From: Fluviirhizobium alvei
Lineage (GTDB): Bacteria > Pseudomonadota > Alphaproteobacteria > Rhizobiales > Rhizobiaceae
Assembly: GCF_030551875.1 (NCBI RefSeq)
Contig: NZ_JAUOZU010000006.1
Span: forward strand, 372,001 to 436,000
DNA: 64,000 nt
Reading direction: 5' to 3'
Below, in pieces: positions 3,241-37,064 of the stretch (positions within the stretch are counted from its first letter, which is position 1; the number at the start of each line of letters is the position of its first letter). The position numbers and the translations under genes were made by a program. Below the pieces are notes generated by a model. The model had not been told where the DNA came from. It did not search any database and worked only from the letters and a program-made list of their open reading frames with translations.

Positions 3241-4175
3241 CGAAGCGGCGGCTCGCAATCTTCTGCGAGCAGAAGCGGTCCATCGAGATCGACGAAATCG
3301 ACATCCTGCGCGAGCAGGATCGCTGGCGCCATGGCGAGCGACGATCCCACCATGCAGCCGACCATGATCCTGTAATCAAGCTCCTGCGCAAGCGCCTTCA
3401 TGGCGAGCGCTTCGGTCAGGCCGCCGGTCTTGTCGAGCTTGATGTTCACCGCATCATAGCGATCCCTCAATGCGTTGAGATCAGATGTCTTGTGAACGCT
3501 TTCATCGGCGCAGATCAGCATCGGATGGTCGATATTGGCCAGGATGGCGTCGCGGCCGGCGGGCAGGGGCTGCTCGATGAGAGCGACTGCGCATTCCGCA
3601 GCCACTTTCAGATGATAGTCGAGATTGGTCTCATCCCAACCTTCATTGGCATCGAGAATGATCCGGGCATCGGGTGCCGCTGATCGGACAGCGCGAATGC
3701 GGGACGCATCATCCGGTGTGCCGACCTTGACCTTGAGAAGCGCGCGGTCCGCATTCTTGCGGGTCTGCTCGGCCATGATCTCCGGTTCACCGAGAGAAAT
3801 TGTGTAGGCGGTAACGAGCGAATGCGGTTCTACAATCCGCAAGGTCTGAGCGACCGCGACGCCGCTTGCCTTTGCTTCAAGGTCCCAGAGCGCACAATCC
3901 ACTGCATTGCGTGCCGCGCCGGCCGGCATGATCTCCATTAACCGATGGCGATCGACACCGCTTGCAACTGCGGCAGCGATTTTCTCTATCTCCGCCCGAA
4001 CGCTTTCCAGTGTTTCGCCGTAACGTTTGTATGGCACGCATTCGCCGCGACCGGCGAACATGCCGTCACGGATCGTGCAGACCACCACGTCGGCCTGCGT
4101 TTTGGCTCCGCGCGAAATCGTGAAACTGCCGGCGATCTTGTAGGATTGGGTTGTGGTTTCAAGGTGACGCGGCAC
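3192..4175 (-). CDS. dgcA: DgcA-like N-acetyl-D-glutamate racemase / dipeptide epimerase (enolase superfamily)
   Basis: A 327-residue member of the muconate-lactonising subgroup of the enolase superfamily. In order it shows the KVKVG lysine pair, metal ligands DANEGW, IEQPL and ADES, and the second catalytic lysine in NIKLDKTGG. The N-terminal IAGSFTISRG and RGECVPYKRYGE are typical of the rhizobial DgcA group, which epimerises N-acetyl-glutamate or L-Ala-D/L-Glu. The longest frame begins at 4301. I placed the start at the GTG at 4175, because GGAG lies 8 bases upstream and homology-like sequence begins only there. The usual partner dgcN is not next to it, so the exact substrate is open. Confidence 0.82.
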   Translation of the reverse strand: MPRHLETTTQSYKIAGSFTISRGAKTQADVVVCTIRDGMFAGRGECVPYKRYGETLESVRAEIEKIAAAVASGVDRHRLMEIMPAGAARNAVDCALWDLEAKASGVAVAQTLRIVEPHSLVTAYTISLGEPEIMAEQTRKNADRALLKVKVGTPDDASRIRAVRSAAPDARIILDANEGWDETNLDYHLKVAAECAVALIEQPLPAGRDAILANIDHPMLICADESVHKTSDLNALRDRYDAVNIKLDKTGGLTEALAMKALAQELDYRIMVGCMVGSSLAMAPAILLAQDVDFVDLDGPLLLAEDCEPPLRYEGSMVFPPDRALWG

Positions 4176-8379: not shown

Positions 8380-11300
8380 TTAGCTGAAGCGACCAGCAGC
8401 ATGGGCAAGCATCGTATAGACCTTGCCGGTATCCGAGGTCAGGTAGCTCTGGGTCAGTGCGCGGTCGCGGTCGTTGCGAGCCACATCGGCCAGCAGCTTC
8501 TCGAAATCGTTGATGTAACGATCGACCGCCGAGCGGAACTCGACTTCGCGCTCGTACTTGCGCTTGATGTCGTCGAAGGTCTGCTGTCCCTTGAGCGTAT
8601 AAAGCCGCCGGGTGAAGACATCCTTCTCGCCGCGCTGGTAGCGGCGCCAGAGATCGACGAACGCGTCATGGTCGATCGCACGTGCGATATCCACCGACAG
8701 GGAGTTGAGCGATTCCACCATGTGGCGCGGGTTGCGGTTGTCCGGCCGCGCCGCCTGCTGCTGGTTTTCGGTCGGTGCGACCGGCGTCACCAGCGGTTCG
8801 TCCCGCGAGGCGTTGCGGAGCAGGTCCGAAATCCAGCCCTGTCCATCTTCGCGACGGGTGACGACGGGCTCGGACGGCTGCTGGCGCTGCTGTTCGACCA
8901 TGGTGCGCTCGATACCGAGGCTGCCGCGCAATTCAGGGGCGCGCTGTCGCGTGTCCTGCACCGGCGCAGCCGGACGAACAGTCTCGGTGCGCTGGGTCAC
9001 CGGCTGGCTTTCCACTGGACGCGATGCGGCGGGCGCTTCCGCGCGGCGGACGGGCTGCGGCTGTGCCGGCTGTGCTGCCGCAACCGGCTGCTGCGGAACC
9101 GGACGCTGTTCGACGACCGGTTGGGCGACCTCGGCACGCGGTGCCGGTTCACGTTTGGGCTCGATCCGGGGTGCGTCGAGATGCGATGCGGAAGCGCCGA
9201 TGATCGAGGAGAGTTCCTGCAGCGCACGAACCTGTTCGGCCACCGCACGACGCATTTGCGCTGCGCTTTCCTTGGCCTCTTCCGGCAGGTCGAAAGCACC
9301 GCGCTTCAATTCGCTGCGCGTATCGTTGAGTTCCTTGCGGATCTCGCCGGCGGTGCGGCGGATTTCCTCGGTGGCGCCGGTGAAGCGACCGACGGCATCC
9401 TCGACCGCGTCCTTGATCGAATTGCGCATCTGTTCCGCCGTTGCCATCGAGCGCTGGCCGCTTTCGCCAAGCACGCGTTCGACTTCGGAAGCGGAGCTGG
9501 CAATGCTGCCACGCAGACGGTTGGCAATTTCCTCGGCCCGTCGATGGGCCTGGGCGAGGGCGGATTCCATCGAGTTCGACGCTTCTTGCGCCGCCGAGCC
9601 GACCGATGCCTTGACGGTCGAAGCCATCTCGCTGGCGCGCCGTTCGGTATCGGAGAGGATCTGGCCGATCTCGGAGAAGGATGTCTGTACGCCCGCCTTG
9701 AGATTGGCCGAAACCTGGCCCGAACGCTGTTCGGCGCGGTCGAAGGCCGCATCGACCAGGTTGGCAAGCGAACGCATGGTGTTCTCGATATCTTCGGAGC
9801 GGCGCAGGAGACCCACGGCCAGCGTCTGAAGCGCTTCCTCGCGCTCGCCAAGCGTCGAGACGAGGTTGGACTGGGCGGCGGCCAAAAGTTCCGAAGCCTG
9901 TCCAAGCACCTTGGAATGATCATCGAAGCGACCGACGATGCCGACGATCTGGCCCAGCGTCTCGCCGGAGACGGTCGTCAGGCGGTCAGCCTTGCCTTCG
10001 AGCAGGCGGGCCGAAGCGCTGACCGATTCCGAGGCGCGCGAGGCGGTTCCCTCGAAACGTTCCGCCGTCGCGTTGAGCGTCCGGTCGATCGTTGTCAGGT
10101 TGGTGCTGGCATCGTTGACCAGTCTCTGCAGGCCGGCATTGCTTTCGTCGAGGGCGCTGATCAGGCTGGTAACCGTATCGCGCAGCGTCTGTTCTGTGCC
10201 GGCCACCGCGCGTGCGGCTTCAGCCGTCCGCGAGGCAATCGCATCGACGAGCGCTGCATTTTCGGTCTTGAGCGCTGCGGCTCCTTCCTGAACGGCAGCA
10301 GCAATTCGACCGGCAGCGTCGCGACCGATTTCGGCAAGCGAGTCGGCTGCGGGTCTCGCCTTTTCGTCGATAAGCTTGCTGAGCTCCATCGAGCGCGCAG
10401 CGAGCATCGAGTTCAGCTCGCGGCTTCTGTCGTCGAGCGTGGCGCGGATCGTTTCGTTGCGGGTCGCCAGTGCCTTTTCAGCCTGATCGAGGCTGGCGCG
10501 AACCGTAGCCGATTCTTGTTCGACGCGGCTGCGTGCCGTTTCGATATCGCTGGCGAACTTGCTGGCGCTATCGGACAGCGACCGCGCGAACGCATCGGCA
10601 CGCTCGCTGAGCGATTCAGTAATGCCGGAGGATTTGGCAGCGATCTCGTCGGTAAACTCGACGCTGCGGGCCGAGATCGATTCGACGATCCGTGCGGCAT
10701 CCGCGTCCATCGACTGGGCGGCATCGACGACAGCCGAACGCAGCGTCGAAGCAAGACCGGATGCCTTGCCGTCGATCGTGCGCGACACGGCTTCGAGACC
10801 GACTGACAGGGCCTTGTCCATGGTGGAGAGCCGTTCTTCGACACGCGCGGTCTTGCTGTCGAAGGTCTCGGCAATCTGCGCCGTCCGCGTTTCGAGCGAC
10901 TGTTCGATCGTCTGGATACGGGTATCGAGCACAGACTGGATGGTCGAGGCACTGCCATCGACATGATCGGTCAGACGGGCTGCACGGCTTTCCAGCGTTT
11001 CGGCGATCCGCGCCGTGCGGTCATCAAGGGCGTTGGAAAGCTGGCTCGTGCTGCCATCCAGCGTTTCGATGATACGGTTCGTCTTGCTGTCCAGCGTTTC
11101 GGCGATCCGGTCGCGGTTGGTTTCCAGCGTTTCCGTGAGCCGATTGGCATTGCCTTCGAGCGTCTCGGAAATCCGGTTGGCGTTGAATTCCAGCGTCCCC
11201 TGCAGACGGTTGGTGCCGCTTTCCAGCGTGTCGGCAATGCGCGCGGAGCTGTTTTCAAGCGATTCCGCGATCGTGGCGCCATGCTGGCCAAGCGTTTCGG

Positions 11301-14300
11301 CGATACGATCGGCAGCTTCCGCCGAACGGCTGTCGAACAGTTCGACATGAACGGCAAAGCGCTCGGAAAGCTGCTGGCCGGCTTCATCGATACGCTGGGC
11401 GAAGTGGCCGGCATCGTTGCTGAGGCCGGCTTCGATGCTGGCAAGGCTCGATGCAATCTTGCCGCCGGTCTCGTCGAAACGCTGCGTCATCATATCGAGC
11501 GTCGATTCCATGCGTGAGCCGAAATTCTCGGCAATCCGCGCCATTTCGTGGGCTTTTTCGCCGAACTGACCGGCAATCGCGCTCGTGGTTTCCTGCACAG
11601 ACAGGTCGATACGGTCGGCGCTTTCGGCAATGGCGGCCCTGAGTGCGGCTTCGCGCTCTTCGAGCTTCATGTCCAGCATCATGATGTTGGACAGCATGTT
11701 GGCGGCACCCGATTGCAGCCGTTCATCGAGCTCATGTCCGCCGGCCTCGATCGTCGAGCGAAGCGCTTCGCGATGGCTGGCGATCTGTGCGATCAGATTT
11801 TCCGCCTGCTGGCTCAGCGTGTCGACGCCCTCATCGAGGCGGCCGCGCAGCGAATCGTAATTCTCGGAAAGCTTGAGGTTGATCGAGATTGCGGTGTCCA
11901 GAAGCCTCTCGTCGAGCGTCTGGGTAGCCTGGTCGATGGCGGCGGCGAGAGACGCTTCCCGCTCGGCGAGGCTCGTTTCCAGTTTCTTCGATTGGCTGGT
12001 CAGAGCCATAACGCTCGCCTGCATGCGTTCATCCACCGCATCGGCCGTAACATCGAGCACCTGGCGGAGGTTCTTTTCCCGGCTGTCGATGGCTTCGGCA
12101 AAGCGCGATGCACTTTCATCGAGCGCATTCGCACCCTGGTTCATCGCTTCTGCGAGGCGGGACGAATGCTCGCTCACGCGCGATGCGAGACTGTTCGTCG
12201 CATTCTCGACCGTATCGGTAATCGTCGCCACATTGACACCGACCGTCTCGCCGATGGACGAAACGCTGCGGTCCAGCGTTTCGCGTAGCTTGGCTTCATT
12301 GTTTTCGAACGAGAGTTCGAGCATGCTGGAACCCATCGCAAGCGTCGTCCCGATCGCGGTGGTCTGCTCGTTGAAAGTCTCGTCGATCTGTTGGCGGCCC
12401 TCGGTCAGCGCGATCGTGATCGCGTTGGCGCGGTCCTCAAGCGTTGCGCGAATGCGCTCATGCGTATCGTTGAGCTTTTCCTCGATATTCGAGCTGCCCA
12501 TTTCCAGCGAGAGCGCAATTTCCATCGCCGAATTTGCAAGCCCTTCCTCGATCCGTCTGGCTGCGCCGGATGTGGCTTCCTCGATGCGGCCCGCGCCCTG
12601 ATCGAGCATGGAGGCGACGGCATTGCCACGGTCCTGAAGGGTTGCCTCCAGCCGCTGTGCCGCGCCGTCGGTAATGTCCTGCATGCGAGCGGTGCCATGC
12701 TCGAGAGCGGATTCGAGCGCGGCAGAACGTTCTTGCAGGCTGCCTTCGATCCGCTGGGTGGCGTTCCGTGTCGCTTCCTCGATCCGGCCGGCGCCGTTCT
12801 CAAGCGAGCTGGCGACGGTGTTTCCATGCTGCTGCAGGCTTTCCTCGATCCGCTGTGCGGCACCATCGGTAATGTCCTGCATGCGGGCAGTGCTGAGGTC
12901 GAGAGAAAGCTCGAACGCAGAAGAGCGCTCAAGCAGGCTGCCTTCGATCCGCTGGGTCGCGTTGCGTGTTGTTTCCTCGATCCGGTCTGCGCCACTCACG
13001 ATCGTATTTGCAACGGTGGTTCCGTGCTGCTGCAGGGTTTCCTCGATGCGCTGGGTCGCGCCATCGGTAATTTCCTGCATACGGGCCGTGCTGAGGTCGA
13101 GCGAAAGTTCGAACGCGGAGCTGCGTTCCAGCAAGCTGCCTTCGATGCGCTCGGCTGCAGCGGCTGTTACCGTTTCGATCTGGTTCGCGCCACGTTCGAT
13201 GGCGTTTTCCATCGCGGCTGCCCGTTCCTGCAGTGTGCCGCCAATCCGGTCGGCTGCATTGACGGTGGCCGCGTCCAGGCGGTTCAATCCCTGTTCGAGA
13301 ACCTGTTCGACAGCGCCGGTCCGTTCCAGCAGTTTTTCGTCCAGCTGGCGGGCGGCGGCGTCCGTGAGCTCGGCCATACGCTCCGTGCCAGCCGCAAGAA
13401 CCGAGGCGACTTCTGCGGAACGTGCCTGCAGGCTGTTTTCGAGCGCCTGCTGGTGTTCGCTGAAAGTGGCCGCGACCGTGATGGCCTGTTCGCCGAGCGT
13501 GCGGGAGAGGCGCGAACGCGCATCATCCACATTGCCGGTAATCAGCTCCGTTCCACGGCTGATCGCTGTCTCAAGCCGCGCGTTGTTGGCGGCAAAGGCA
13601 TTTTCGATCTCCACGGCTTTGCCGTCGAGCAGGGCGGACATTTTCTCATGTCCACCGCTGATGGCCGAGGTGATGGCGCTGGCGCGATCATCGATCTTGG
13701 CCACGAGCGCATCGGCCTTGGCGCCAAAATTGGCGTCGAGATTGGTCTGCGCCTGCGAAATTGCCGACGTGATGGCACTGACACGGCTGTCGAGCGAGGA
13801 TTCGATCAGTTCCTGACCGGTGCCCAGCGCGGTTTCGATGCTGAGCGACTGGCCCGTGAGTGTTGACGTGAGGCGCTCGATCGTCGAGGTCAGAACCTCC
13901 TCGATCGCCGCCGCTGCACCACCCGCCGAACTGTTGATGCGGGTGAGGCTTTCTGAAAGCTTGCTATCGAGCGTGCCGGCACGACGGTCGAACGCATCGG
14001 CGAACTCGTTGATGCGACCGTCGAACGCGCTTGAGACCATATCGATCGAGGAGCGGAACTTTTCCTCGAACAGACCGGAGCGCAGATCGAGATCGATGAT
14101 CGTATCGTCGACGGTCGACTTGAGCGTCTGGCGGAACTGGGCGCCCTTTTCATCGAGCGACGAGTTGAGGCTGTGAAGAATGTCGTCGAGGCCGCCTGTG
14201 ATGGCCTGTTCGCCGACACTGAGCGACTCGTTGATCTGCCGGGTACGGGCAATCAGCGTTTCATTGAGCTGGCGGGTGCGTTCCTGCAGCGCGGCATTGA

Positions 14301-15471
14301 GCTTCTCGGTATTGGCGTCGAGCATGGATGCCCGTGTCTCGAATTCGGACAGAAGTGCACGGCCACGTTCGGACAGGGTGGAGCCGAGCAACTCGATGCG
14401 GGAATCGAATTCGCCCGCCATCGAGACTGTGGAATTCGTGATCGCGGCAACGAGGCTGTCCGCCTTGGCCGCCAGGAGCGAGCCGACCGAACCTGCGGCA
14501 AGCCCGGTCTTTTCCATGACCATGGCGGCCTGGGTGTCGAGCATCTGGGCGATGGCCGCCCCTGACGTCGAAATCTGCCGGGAGATGGCAACGCTGGCGC
14601 CGGCAAGTTCGTCCTTCAGCTGATCATGCGCACCCGAAATGGACGAGCGCACACGTTCGGCGTGATTGACGATGGCTTCGCGCTCGGAACCGAGTTCCTG
14701 AACCAGGCTGCGGACGCGCATTTCATTGTCGGTATAGCTGCGCTCAAGCGCATTCACTTCCGAATGGACGAGGGATTCGAGCTCGGTCGCACGGGCGATC
14801 GTCCGCTCGATGCCTTCGTTCATCGCGTTGACTTCACGACGCACGGCCTGACCGACAGTCATGATCCGTTCGGCGGCGATCTTGTCGGGTTCGCTCAACC
14901 GGAGCGCCATTTCCGCCATCGAGCGGGCGGCGTGCCTGAGTTCGCGGGCCCGGGCGATCATGGTCGCAAAGGCGAAGAAGATGAGAATGGGGAAGGTGGT
15001 TCCGACCAGGATTCCCGCGGCCCCCGGAATGGCAAACAGTTCCTGAAGCGAACCGACCTGCCAGATTGCCGGCGAATAGAGCAGATGTGCGGTCCCAAGA
15101 CCAAGCAGCACCCAGAGAACCGAAATGATCGCGGCGATCCGCACTGGCGACATGCCCGATGCCGGATCGGCGTCTCTCAGATAGGCCGTCGTGGCGGCCA
15201 TGCGCTGGTCGTTTGCCGGTCGATGGGCTGGCGATTTCGGGCCCGGTTCAGGCGCAAGTTCACGCGCGATATCCTCGGAGCGGCTCCGGGATTTCGGATC
15301 GTTCTTTGCGCCGGCATTCGGGGCGCCCTGATTGGCAACATCAGACAAATTGGCCTCCAGAGGGTCGCTCTTGCCGCGCGGTCGATCATCGTGGAAGTCA
15401 ATGGCCAGTGCATCTTCCAATGCCTTGTAGGCATTGTTTGCCGCTGCATCGTCTTCCTTCCTGCTCGTCAT
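8380..15471 (-). CDS. gpr: Giant repeat protein, probable Growth Pole Ring protein (GPR/RgsE family)
   Basis: A 2363-residue protein. Residues 1-110 are hydrophilic and cytoplasm-like. Two membrane helices follow at about 111-133 and 150-172. About 1800 residues of continuous amphipathic helix then show apolipoprotein-like 11-residue periodicity. A P/Q/A-rich linker runs to about 2190 and a compact conserved C-terminal domain ends the protein. The architecture matches Agrobacterium GPR, which forms a ring at the growing pole and is needed for polar growth and rod shape, and Sinorhizobium RgsE. Repeats include a perfect-length 66-residue tandem unit (about residues 782-978) and an array of about 13 eleven-residue units (about 1395-1540). 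The gene is alone on its strand, bounded by a terminator downstream and a CtrA-box region upstream. The many long open frames inside it on the other strands are shadows. Confidence 0.85.
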   Translation of the reverse strand: MTSRKEDDAAANNAYKALEDALAIDFHDDRPRGKSDPLEANLSDVANQGAPNAGAKNDPKSRSRSEDIARELAPEPGPKSPAHRPANDQRMAATTAYLRDADPASGMSPVRIAAIISVLWVLLGLGTAHLLYSPAIWQVGSLQELFAIPGAAGILVGTTFPILIFFAFATMIARARELRHAARSMAEMALRLSEPDKIAAERIMTVGQAVRREVNAMNEGIERTIARATELESLVHSEVNALERSYTDNEMRVRSLVQELGSEREAIVNHAERVRSSISGAHDQLKDELAGASVAISRQISTSGAAIAQMLDTQAAMVMEKTGLAAGSVGSLLAAKADSLVAAITNSTVSMAGEFDSRIELLGSTLSERGRALLSEFETRASMLDANTEKLNAALQERTRQLNETLIARTRQINESLSVGEQAITGGLDDILHSLNSSLDEKGAQFRQTLKSTVDDTIIDLDLRSGLFEEKFRSSIDMVSSAFDGRINEFADAFDRRAGTLDSKLSESLTRINSSAGGAAAAIEEVLTSTIERLTSTLTGQSLSIETALGTGQELIESSLDSRVSAITSAISQAQTNLDANFGAKADALVAKIDDRASAITSAISGGHEKMSALLDGKAVEIENAFAANNARLETAISRGTELITGNVDDARSRLSRTLGEQAITVAATFSEHQQALENSLQARSAEVASVLAAGTERMAELTDAAARQLDEKLLERTGAVEQVLEQGLNRLDAATVNAADRIGGTLQERAAAMENAIERGANQIETVTAAAAERIEGSLLERSSAFELSLDLSTARMQEITDGATQRIEETLQQHGTTVANTIVSGADRIEETTRNATQRIEGSLLERSSAFELSLDLSTARMQDITDGAAQRIEESLQQHGNTVASSLENGAGRIEEATRNATQRIEGSLQERSAALESALEHGTARMQDITDGAAQRLEATLQDRGNAVASMLDQGAGRIEEATSGAARRIEEGLANSAMEIALSLEMGSSNIEEKLNDTHERIRATLEDRANAITIALTEGRQQIDETFNEQTTAIGTTLAMGSSMLELSFENNEAKLRETLDRSVSSIGETVGVNVATITDTVENATNSLASRVSEHSSRLAEAMNQGANALDESASRFAEAIDSREKNLRQVLDVTADAVDERMQASVMALTSQSKKLETSLAEREASLAAAIDQATQTLDERLLDTAISINLKLSENYDSLRGRLDEGVDTLSQQAENLIAQIASHREALRSTIEAGGHELDERLQSGAANMLSNIMMLDMKLEEREAALRAAIAESADRIDLSVQETTSAIAGQFGEKAHEMARIAENFGSRMESTLDMMTQRFDETGGKIASSLASIEAGLSNDAGHFAQRIDEAGQQLSERFAVHVELFDSRSAEAADRIAETLGQHGATIAESLENSSARIADTLESGTNRLQGTLEFNANRISETLEGNANRLTETLETNRDRIAETLDSKTNRIIETLDGSTSQLSNALDDRTARIAETLESRAARLTDHVDGSASTIQSVLDTRIQTIEQSLETRTAQIAETFDSKTARVEERLSTMDKALSVGLEAVSRTIDGKASGLASTLRSAVVDAAQSMDADAARIVESISARSVEFTDEIAAKSSGITESLSERADAFARSLSDSASKFASDIETARSRVEQESATVRASLDQAEKALATRNETIRATLDDRSRELNSMLAARSMELSKLIDEKARPAADSLAEIGRDAAGRIAAAVQEGAAALKTENAALVDAIASRTAEAARAVAGTEQTLRDTVTSLISALDESNAGLQRLVNDASTNLTTIDRTLNATAERFEGTASRASESVSASARLLEGKADRLTTVSGETLGQIVGIVGRFDDHSKVLGQASELLAAAQSNLVSTLGEREEALQTLAVGLLRRSEDIENTMRSLANLVDAAFDRAEQRSGQVSANLKAGVQTSFSEIGQILSDTERRASEMASTVKASVGSAAQEASNSMESALAQAHRRAEEIANRLRGSIASSASEVERVLGESGQRSMATAEQMRNSIKDAVEDAVGRFTGATEEIRRTAGEIRKELNDTRSELKRGAFDLPEEAKESAAQMRRAVAEQVRALQELSSIIGASASHLDAPRIEPKREPAPRAEVAQPVVEQRPVPQQPVAAAQPAQPQPVRRAEAPAASRPVESQPVTQRTETVRPAAPVQDTRQRAPELRGSLGIERTMVEQQRQQPSEPVVTRREDGQGWISDLLRNASRDEPLVTPVAPTENQQQAARPDNRNPRHMVESLNSLSVDIARAIDHDAFVDLWRRYQRGEKDVFTRRLYTLKGQQTFDDIKRKYEREVEFRSAVDRYINDFEKLLADVARNDRDRALTQSYLTSDTGKVYTMLAHAAGRFS

Positions 15472-16299: not shown

Positions 16300-16680
<381 letters not shown>

Positions 16681-16709
16681 ACGTGCTCTGTCGTTGAAAA
16701 ATCGCGGGC

Positions 16710-16816
16710 AAAAAATTGCCTCGCTCAGTTTTTGTGAGCGAGGCTAGTTTGACGCATCTGATGCCAGGCGAGGGAGGAGACACCTGGCGCCAACTCCATG
16801 CGCCTTGGGAAACCGA
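16710..16816 (-). ncRNA. Candidate trans-acting small RNA with anti-Shine-Dalgarno loop ('cuckoo'/alpha-r14-like)
   Basis: On the minus strand GCCAGG (16788-16783) and CCTGGC (16768-16763) form a hairpin whose 14-base loop contains CTCCTCCC, an anti-Shine-Dalgarno motif. An 18-base linker follows. A strong 10-bp terminator hairpin (16744-16718, loop CAAAAAC) then ends in a run of six T. A sigma70-like promoter (TTGTTA, 17-base spacer, TTATGT) lies just upstream, giving a transcript of about 107 bases. CUCCUCCC in a hairpin loop plus a Rho-independent terminator is the hallmark of rhizobial alpha-r14 and related cuckoo RNAs. The 5' end is inferred. Confidence 0.55.
16715..16744 (-). terminator. 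Rho-independent terminator of the small RNA
   Basis: A perfect 10-bp stem (GCCTCGCTCA with TGAGCGAGGC) with a 7-base loop. On the minus strand it is followed by AATTTTTT; on the plus strand only TAGTTT follows. It therefore works mainly for minus-strand transcripts, though it could also end the ferredoxin message. Confidence 0.75.
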
Positions 16817-16823
16817 AAACGCC

Positions 16824-16852
16824 ACATAACCAACTCCGAATGACAGTAACAA
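16824..16852 (-). promoter_or_regulatory. Sigma70-like promoter for the candidate small RNA
   Basis: Read on the minus strand: -35 TTGTTA (16852-16847), 17-base spacer, -10 TTATGT (16829-16824). Initiation is expected near 16816. Confidence 0.4.
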
Positions 16853-17075
16853 CTGCCTCTAACTGATAGTTGAACGCTAGTTCAGACTGACGACAAGCGC
16901 AATTCGTAGATTTCACCCGTAATTCACAAGTGTCTTGTTAAGCTCCACGCAAGATACAGGTTCTTTTGGCGAGATCTGACCGTCAAAAGTTGCATCAACC
17001 CGGTCCGGTGGCCACAAGGTAACGACTCGTGGCGCAATGAACCCCGATTCGGCAGATCTGGACGGGTGGCAAATC

Positions 17076-17702
17076 TCAGTTCGTGACTTTGCGCGATTGT
17101 TGGCGGTATTTAAGAAGCCTTGCCATCCGGCTTTCGAAATTTGCAGCTTCGATCCGGTCAAATTGCTGCTGGGCCTTGTCATGAGAGGCGAGCAGCTCGT
17201 TCGACAGTTTGCTTACTTTCGCCTTCAGAACATCGCAGGACTTTGCCGGTCGCAATGCCAGAATGGCCTTTTCGAGATCGCGCGCATAGGAGCGGGCGAT
17301 TTCCGCATGCCGCTCTTCATGGCGCTTGATATCGGATGACAGCGTATCCCATACGAGCGCCATCTTGGCATTGGCCTTCTTGCGGTTGGTCCAGCGCGGC
17401 AGAAGCAGTTTCGTATTGAGCGACACCTTGGCGCCGCCGATCCGACAATTTCCCTTGCCGCTCACAAAGGTCGCGGCCCCATCGAACTTGATCTTCGTTG
17501 CTCCTGGATGCCGACGGCCTGTGACGCTCGACATCGGACCGCGCTTCTTCATTTCGCGATCGAGATCGGCGGCGGTGCTGCCGCCGATGCTGAAATAGGT
17601 GGTGGTTTTGCTAATGATCGTCTCGCCCTGCGTCGAATACGGAACGAGCGCCAGTAACAGGCAGAGAGCAACCGCTGTCTTGGTTCGTTTTGCGTGCTGC
17701 AT
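17076..17702 (-). CDS. Exported DUF922-like putative zinc-dependent protease
   Basis: A 208-residue protein with an N-terminal signal peptide (about residues 1-26, ending PYSTQG). The envelope-located mature part contains the zinc-metalloprotease-type motif HEERH at 128-132, inside a long helix (IKRHEERHAEIARSYARDLE). This matches the DUF922 family of predicted secreted peptidases. Activity is inferred from the motif only. The ATG at 17702 is preceded by AGGAGGAGG, a very strong ribosome-binding site; the longer frame upstream overlaps folP. It is divergent from folP across 91 bases holding an inverted repeat. Confidence 0.72.
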   Translation of the reverse strand: MQHAKRTKTAVALCLLLALVPYSTQGETIISKTTTYFSIGGSTAADLDREMKKRGPMSSVTGRRHPGATKIKFDGAATFVSGKGNCRIGGAKVSLNTKLLLPRWTNRKKANAKMALVWDTLSSDIKRHEERHAEIARSYARDLEKAILALRPAKSCDVLKAKVSKLSNELLASHDKAQQQFDRIEAANFESRMARLLKYRQQSRKVTN

Positions 17703-36790: not shown

Positions 36791-36913
36791 TTTTCACATT
36801 CCGGTTGACGCTTCGTCACCCATTTCGCGGATGTGAAAAGCACTGTCTGGCCTTGCCAACAAGCTCTACATTTTTTATGTGTTTTATGTCGGATGGCACA
36901 ACGTCATGCGGCA

Positions 36914-37064
36914 TTCGTTCTCAGGGCGGGGTGCAATTCCCCACCGGCGGTAAAGGGCCTCGGCCTCAAGCCCGCGAGCGGCTCCGGCAATTGCTGGAGT
37001 GTCAGCAGATCCGGTGTGACTCCGGAGCCGACGGTATAGTCCGGATGGAAGAGGACGGGAAACG
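36914..37064 (+). ncRNA. FMN riboswitch (RFN element)
   Basis: All the conserved blocks occur in order: CAGGGCGGGGTG, CCCCACCGGCGGT, AGCCCGCGAGCG, CAGATCCGGTGTGA, CCGGAGCCGACGGTATAGTCCGGATG. The aptamer senses flavin mononucleotide. It ends about 80 bases before the transporter start, with no clear terminator in between, so control at translation initiation is likely. Confidence 0.95.

Follow-up and report, generated by a model that had tools for sequence, protein, structure and literature searches.

An Atu_C7 small RNA gene of Fluviirhizobium alvei and a tentative target among sugar transporter mRNAs

The intergenic region between a ferredoxin gene and a DUF922 gene of Fluviirhizobium alvei, located in a 64-kb stretch of DNA analysed here as a whole (the window), carries a real small regulatory RNA that is encoded by an independent minus-strand gene and is firmly assigned to the catalogued rhizobial family Atu_C7 (Rfam RF02501). 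Its family membership, its structure, and the conservation of its promoter and neighbourhood all emerge directly from the comparisons below. Taken whole, the explanation that we favour and consider probable is that of a single-copy Atu_C7 RNA with its own promoter, whose loop would block mRNAs encoded in trans, with that of a sugar-binding protein as the best target. The RNA had originally been predicted as unannotated, and its match to RF02501 places it in a family already described; what is new is one further Atu_C7 member, a corrected gene model and one target hypothesis, and an Hfq-bound family for which the literature excerpts consulted name no target thereby gains a corrected promoter and length together with a neighbourhood and a taxonomic range.

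Family identity and gene model

An Rfam scan of the 64-kb window returned four matches, namely an FMN riboswitch, two tRNAs and Atu_C7, the last extending over 16865-16713 on the minus strand and over positions 1-157 of the 157 in the model, with a score of 46.4 bits (E 2.1e-7) that exceeds the cut-off of 45 by only 1.4 bits. The element is present in a single copy in the window genome, and the features by which we judged Atu_C7 membership, a stem-loop 1 with a CCUCCC loop and a terminator, are found to be conserved with compensating changes. The gene model combines the Rfam match with a start predicted from a conserved promoter and an end at the U-tract, and the locus comprises the following features in window coordinates:

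16360..16680, plus strand: 2Fe-2S ferredoxin gene (Fer2; PF00111 above cut-off), convergent neighbour
16710..16867, minus strand: Atu_C7 (RF02501) sRNA gene, predicted primary transcript of ~157 bases (Rfam, promoter, U-tract)
16718..16744, minus strand: Rho-independent terminator hairpin of 10 pairs, then AATTTTTT (terminator scan)
16751..16804, minus strand: stem-loop 1, with pairs that covary in both the outer and the apical helix (fold, alignment, shuffles)
16771..16780, minus strand: apical loop UCUCCUCCCU, proposed pairing seed, invariant in the genus
16874..16879, minus strand: putative -10 element TAGCGT (genus conservation; not flagged by the consensus scan)
16897..16902, minus strand: putative -35 element TTGCGC (genus conservation; not flagged by the consensus scan)
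16925..16974, minus strand: upstream blocks resembling CTTGCGNNNAGCTT and CCTGTNAATT, putative activator or repressor site (identity)
17076..17702, minus strand: DUF922 gene (PF06037; ATG at 17702), co-directional upstream neighbour

The original prediction, a small RNA that has a terminator of its own and a loop of the anti-Shine-Dalgarno type, is borne out, and both elements are kept in relatives. The minus-strand hairpin with the CU-rich loop is present (UCUCCUCCCU at 16780-16771 within a stem at 16804-16751), as is the perfect 10-bp terminator (16744-16718, with AATTTTTT after it). The 107 bases initially delimited fold with -46.5 kcal/mol (z -4.7), a stability matched by 0 of 200 shuffles, and a terminator scan of 501 bases gave two minus-strand sites against 0.5 expected, one of them the 10-pair hairpin. 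The promoter first proposed, TTGTTA-17-TTATGT, fared less well: its letters are indeed there (16852-16847 and 16829-16824), but they are not conserved, with 0 of 12 positions invariant and mean identities of 0.27 and 0.38 across nine congeneric genomes. A TTGNNC-17-TANNNT pattern is instead kept in all nine, with 7 of its 12 hexamer positions invariant; it precedes the loop by ~120 bases and lies ~50 bases upstream of the earlier promoter. Scanning 16600-17100 with a strict consensus of the E. coli type yielded 0 sites and flagged neither promoter, so TTGCGC-17-TAGCGT is recognized solely by its conservation. It predicts a start at ~16867, two bases from that of the Rfam match at 16865, and thus a transcript of ~157 bases rather than the ~107 bases originally estimated; the interval first marked, 16706-16855, misses the 5' end and the promoter.

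Upstream of this promoter, the blocks at 16925-16974 reach identities of up to 0.83 per 10-base block, compared with ~0.3 farther upstream (nine genomes), and they may be a site for an activator or repressor. At L023, L057 and L069, which come from other genera, similar CTTG...CTTG-like blocks also precede the RNA. Among the alignments listed, the upstream sequences differ in other genera, so that it is mainly a ~100-base core that the genera have in common.

In Agrobacterium tumefaciens, C7 is described as a minus-strand RNA between atu1350 and atu1351 that is Northern-verified and Hfq-bound, with 20-fold Hfq enrichment in minimal medium and, in an hfq mutant, levels that are reduced in minimal medium and comparable in complex medium (PMC4201532, in the portion available). 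The intergenic RNA C1_1345805R of the same species, reported with 155 bases and two Northern bands of ~200 and ~140 (PMC3738593, in part), may be C7 as judged by strand, place and size. In the excerpts of PMC3927594, the families described include five RNAs of A. tumefaciens that sequencing and Northern blots had confirmed, and C7 is not one of the five. The window copy resembles Atu_C7 of A. tumefaciens C58 in its full-length match, CU-rich apical loop, terminator and minus-strand intergenic gene, and differs in scoring near the cut-off and in its poorly conserved leader; its transcript is a predicted one.

The resemblance to other CU-loop RNAs is one of principle. The alpha-r14/cuckoo family, including NfeR1 (RF02344), shares an anti-Shine-Dalgarno loop and action in trans, and the RNA had been attributed to it; we regard that attribution as very unlikely to be correct. 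The covariance search suggested along with it gave a weak RF02344 alignment of 19.8 bits, far under the gathering score of 58.8 and a refutation by model score; furthermore, the locus has one CU-loop hairpin rather than three, each with CCUCCUCCC (PMC3927594 and PMC7143759, in the portions available), and is single where several copies per genome are expected. Alpha-r14 matches sit elsewhere in the genome (four above cut-off at 94-107 bits, three weaker, none at the locus). A CCUCCUCCC-like loop alone is insufficient for alpha-r14 identity: the window genome has both Atu_C7 and alpha-r14, as two distinct families. Anti-hemB (Burkholderia RNA 7, RF02837), which likewise combines a CUCCUCCCU loop with a terminator, was rejected because it scored 23.3 bits in a permissive scan, where its cut-off is 49.5. 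AbcR1/AbcR2 (alpha-r15, partly homologous to suhB, RF00519) are alike in their CU-rich motifs and Hfq binding (PMC7143759, in part), whereas RF00519 has zero matches at the window locus and two elsewhere in the genome. From the literature excerpts consulted, EcpR1 and GspR were ruled out by genomic place, and PmaR by its former name, C10.

Conservation, range and neighbourhood

Conservation of the RNA is concentrated in its structured part. Within nine congeneric genomes, the check on loop and terminator proposed with the original prediction finds the loop invariant at 10/10 positions and the terminator 5' arm at 9/10. Stem-loop 1 is invariant at 23/27 positions of its apical part; the 55-base 5' leader has 2 invariant positions and an identity of 0.39. 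Before alignment we set aside L012, which seems to duplicate the record of L070, and the chance motif matches L034, L056 and L080; 47 of the 56 cores then available were aligned. CCTCCC is invariant in all 47, and the consensus structure comprises 22 pairs, half of which (11/22) show changes on both sides. Each of five pair measures has an observed value reached by 0 of 500 shuffles, in which relatedness remains, and slid alignments score far under the observed measures.

RF02501 itself picks up 14 of 61 relatives, 12 of them above cut-off, and covers the genus in full (9/9); of twelve loci from other genera compared with it, eight score above the cut-off, two score below it and two are unmatched. 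A covariance model of our own, built from the aligned cores, matches in 26 of the 61 relatives at E <=0.01. It has 30 loci, of which we inspected 29, all but L222; a further two weak rows had no locus and were passed over. Of the 29, 16, one per genome in 16 genomes, lie beside ferredoxin and/or DUF922, and the 13 with neither gene are terminator-like and were rejected. Searched against 199 family genomes, the model recovers the RNA in 44 at E <=1e-6. At the level of the order it matches in 6 of 249 genomes; the three matches outside the family are terminator-like and lack the neighbour genes. Weak outside-family matches (L370-L373), of which two come from stretches just 1.6 kb long, resemble terminators, lack both neighbour genes and were rejected. 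Two diverged homologues in the same place have altered loops, UUUUCUCCCU in L206 (genome G025) and GUUCCUUCCA in L208 (genome G032).

The neighbourhood is conserved along with the RNA. Of 80 ferredoxin loci, which are best protein matches and not a random sample, 49 hold the RNA under our own model, excluding one marginal extra match in L059. DUF922 lies in the fetched stretch at 47 of these 49 loci and at 5 of the 31 without the RNA, and wherever all three are held (47/47) the order is ferredoxin (+), RNA (-), DUF922 (-). An annotated Sinorhizobium meliloti record reads ferredoxin, DUF922, folP, folB and folK, with the RNA present. The ferredoxin of the window reaches TIGR02007 only below its cut-off.

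DUF922 is thus co-directional with the RNA and upstream of it in 47/47 loci holding ferredoxin, RNA and DUF922, an arrangement that would also suit a processed 3' UTR of the DUF922 mRNA without an independent gene. We consider such an origin unlikely, in view of the intervening promoter kept in 9/9 congeneric genomes, the identity of only 0.31 in the stretch nearer DUF922, and the description of C7 as a trans-encoded sRNA in Agrobacterium (PMC4201532, in the portion available). Still less credible, to the point of being nearly negligible, is a small protein encoded by a 24-codon frame through stem-loop 1: the window copy does hold an ATG frame, with which a longer listed frame ends, but the ATG is absent from 5 of 9 congeneric copies, the distances that separate conserved blocks vary by single bases, and the pairs covary as in an RNA. 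An independent Atu_C7 gene remains our reading of the locus.

In five Hoeflea loci (L038, L076, L077, L083, L093) and in L021 and L035, the RNA lies 0.7-1.1 kb farther from ferredoxin, at 3579-4100 compared with ~2850 in most others, which indicates that something stands between the two. Elsewhere in the window, 8380-15471 on the minus strand encodes a repetitive protein of 2363 residues, probably coiled-coil, whose same-place counterpart in S. meliloti is annotated 'kinesin', and the FMN riboswitch lies at 36913-37060 on the plus strand (121.2 bits).

Proposed mode of action

We infer the pairing mechanism, repression and target for C7 as follows. The conserved promoter would belong to Atu_C7 itself and drive its transcription in the direction of the ferredoxin gene, up to the Rho-independent terminator. 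The loop of stem-loop 1 would expose the CU-rich UCUCCUCCCU for pairing with mRNAs encoded in trans, at their purine-rich ribosome-binding sites, and would block their translation with the help of Hfq; the best candidate target would be the mRNA of a sugar ABC transporter solute-binding protein. NfeR1 is reported to pair with ribosome-binding sites (PMC10746234 and PMC7143759, in part), and the CU-rich motifs of AbcR1/2 are proposed to act on ABC transporter mRNAs (PMC7143759, in part). Given this precedent and the invariant CU-rich loop, pairing to ribosome-binding sites is the natural reading, and by analogy Atu_C7 likely works by covering those of other mRNAs. No target of C7 and no link to the binding protein is named in the portions of the literature searched, for which 'C7' is too short a search term.

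Candidate target mRNAs

DUF922 had been put forward as a target for the ribosome-binding site that precedes its ATG at 17702. That site, AGGAGGAGG, is present, but DUF922 makes a weak target: the loop-DUF922 duplex energy of -20.2 ranks 23rd of 185, against a background of 184 genes from the window plus 200 kb of the genome, and among the leaders recovered, with a heuristic choice of start, AGGAGGAGG occurs in that of the window genome only. DUF922 was rejected as a target on both grounds.

Across the genome, the pattern GGGAGGAG followed by ATG has 46 matches, some of them on one site, compared with 3 for the reversed pattern, so that many mRNAs could pair with the loop. One leader recurs among the nine congeneric genomes, as AGGGAGGAGACTCATG in four and AGGGAGGAGAACTCATG in two, and in the window genome it precedes the gene of a 414-residue solute-binding protein (PF01547) whose PDB relatives are sugar-binding proteins, including a glucose-binding protein; an annotated relative lies beside two permease genes and a LacI-type regulator. 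The run between loop and leader in the window genome comprises 14 pairs, one of them G-U, and its duplex energy of -30.3 is the best of 185 leaders, for a candidate that had been preselected from the pattern matches. Simple duplex energies were used throughout; cofold energies, under which the binding-protein leader ranks 112 and DUF922 162, were set aside because loop pairing is a pseudoknot that they cannot represent.

We then compared binding-protein leaders from 117 genomes (G024 yielded no parsed leader), counting a genome as without the RNA when E exceeded 1e-6 under strict filters or, for the 61 relatives, by neighbourhood, so that some of these genomes may hold a diverged copy. The loop-complementary motif GTGAGGGAGG stands in the ribosome-binding site of 38 of 46 genomes scored as having the RNA and 0 of 71 scored as lacking it (Fisher 3e-23, uncorrected for relatedness). 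GGGAGG is present in all 117 leaders, such sites being partly favoured by the leader finder. G025 keeps a GTGAGGGAGGAGACTC leader despite its altered loop. Pairing the same loops with leaders of genomes without the RNA gives a mean of -16.9. Loop and leader show no co-variation, either in the 46 genomes (own -22.7 against swapped -22.5, p 0.25) or in a 38-genome subset with one genome of the window's genus (p 0.32). On a tree of 42 of the 43 binding proteins (G095, unparsed, was left out), the GAGGGAGG leader of genes in RNA genomes must have been gained or lost 6 times, and well-supported branches force 5 of these changes, so the leader does not just track the protein; like the RNA, it may still follow the species tree.

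From these sequence comparisons we consider the binding-protein gene a better candidate than DUF922, and hold it tentatively as a target of Atu_C7. In its fullest form, which we likewise advance with some doubt, the hypothesis would make Atu_C7 a dedicated translational regulator of one glucose-type sugar ABC transporter in the classical Rhizobiaceae, whose binding-protein mRNA would have evolved a longer ribosome-binding site, GUGAGGGAGG, to match the CCUCCCUC conserved in the loop, a site that occurs, within the 117 genomes, only where the RNA is found.

A serious alternative, to which we give appreciable weight though somewhat short of an even chance, shares the RNA's identity and pairing mode with our favoured explanation, overlapping with it, and differs in its view of the target: either other mRNAs would be the chief partners of Atu_C7, or the RNA would block Shine-Dalgarno sequences widely and with low specificity, and the binding-protein leader would reflect species history or a transcriptional operator of its own. 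The excess of pattern matches (46 against 3) and the lack of co-variation between loop and leader both favour it, as does the palindromic, operator-like stretch that the GTGAGGGAGG motif abuts and whose half also differs between genome groups. Against it stand the 14-pair run, strongest of the 185 leaders albeit preselected, and the restriction of GTGAGGGAGG, absent from all 71 genomes without the RNA even though every one of the 117 leaders has GGGAGG. The alpha-r14 and suhB-type RNAs of the window genome could use this binding-protein leader site as well.

The binding-protein genes of G000, G003, G005 and G089 (L164-L166 and L374; compare L375-L376) cluster with genes from genomes scored as lacking the RNA (G098, G194) and yet carry the leader of RNA genomes, as if coding parts had been exchanged behind a resident leader.
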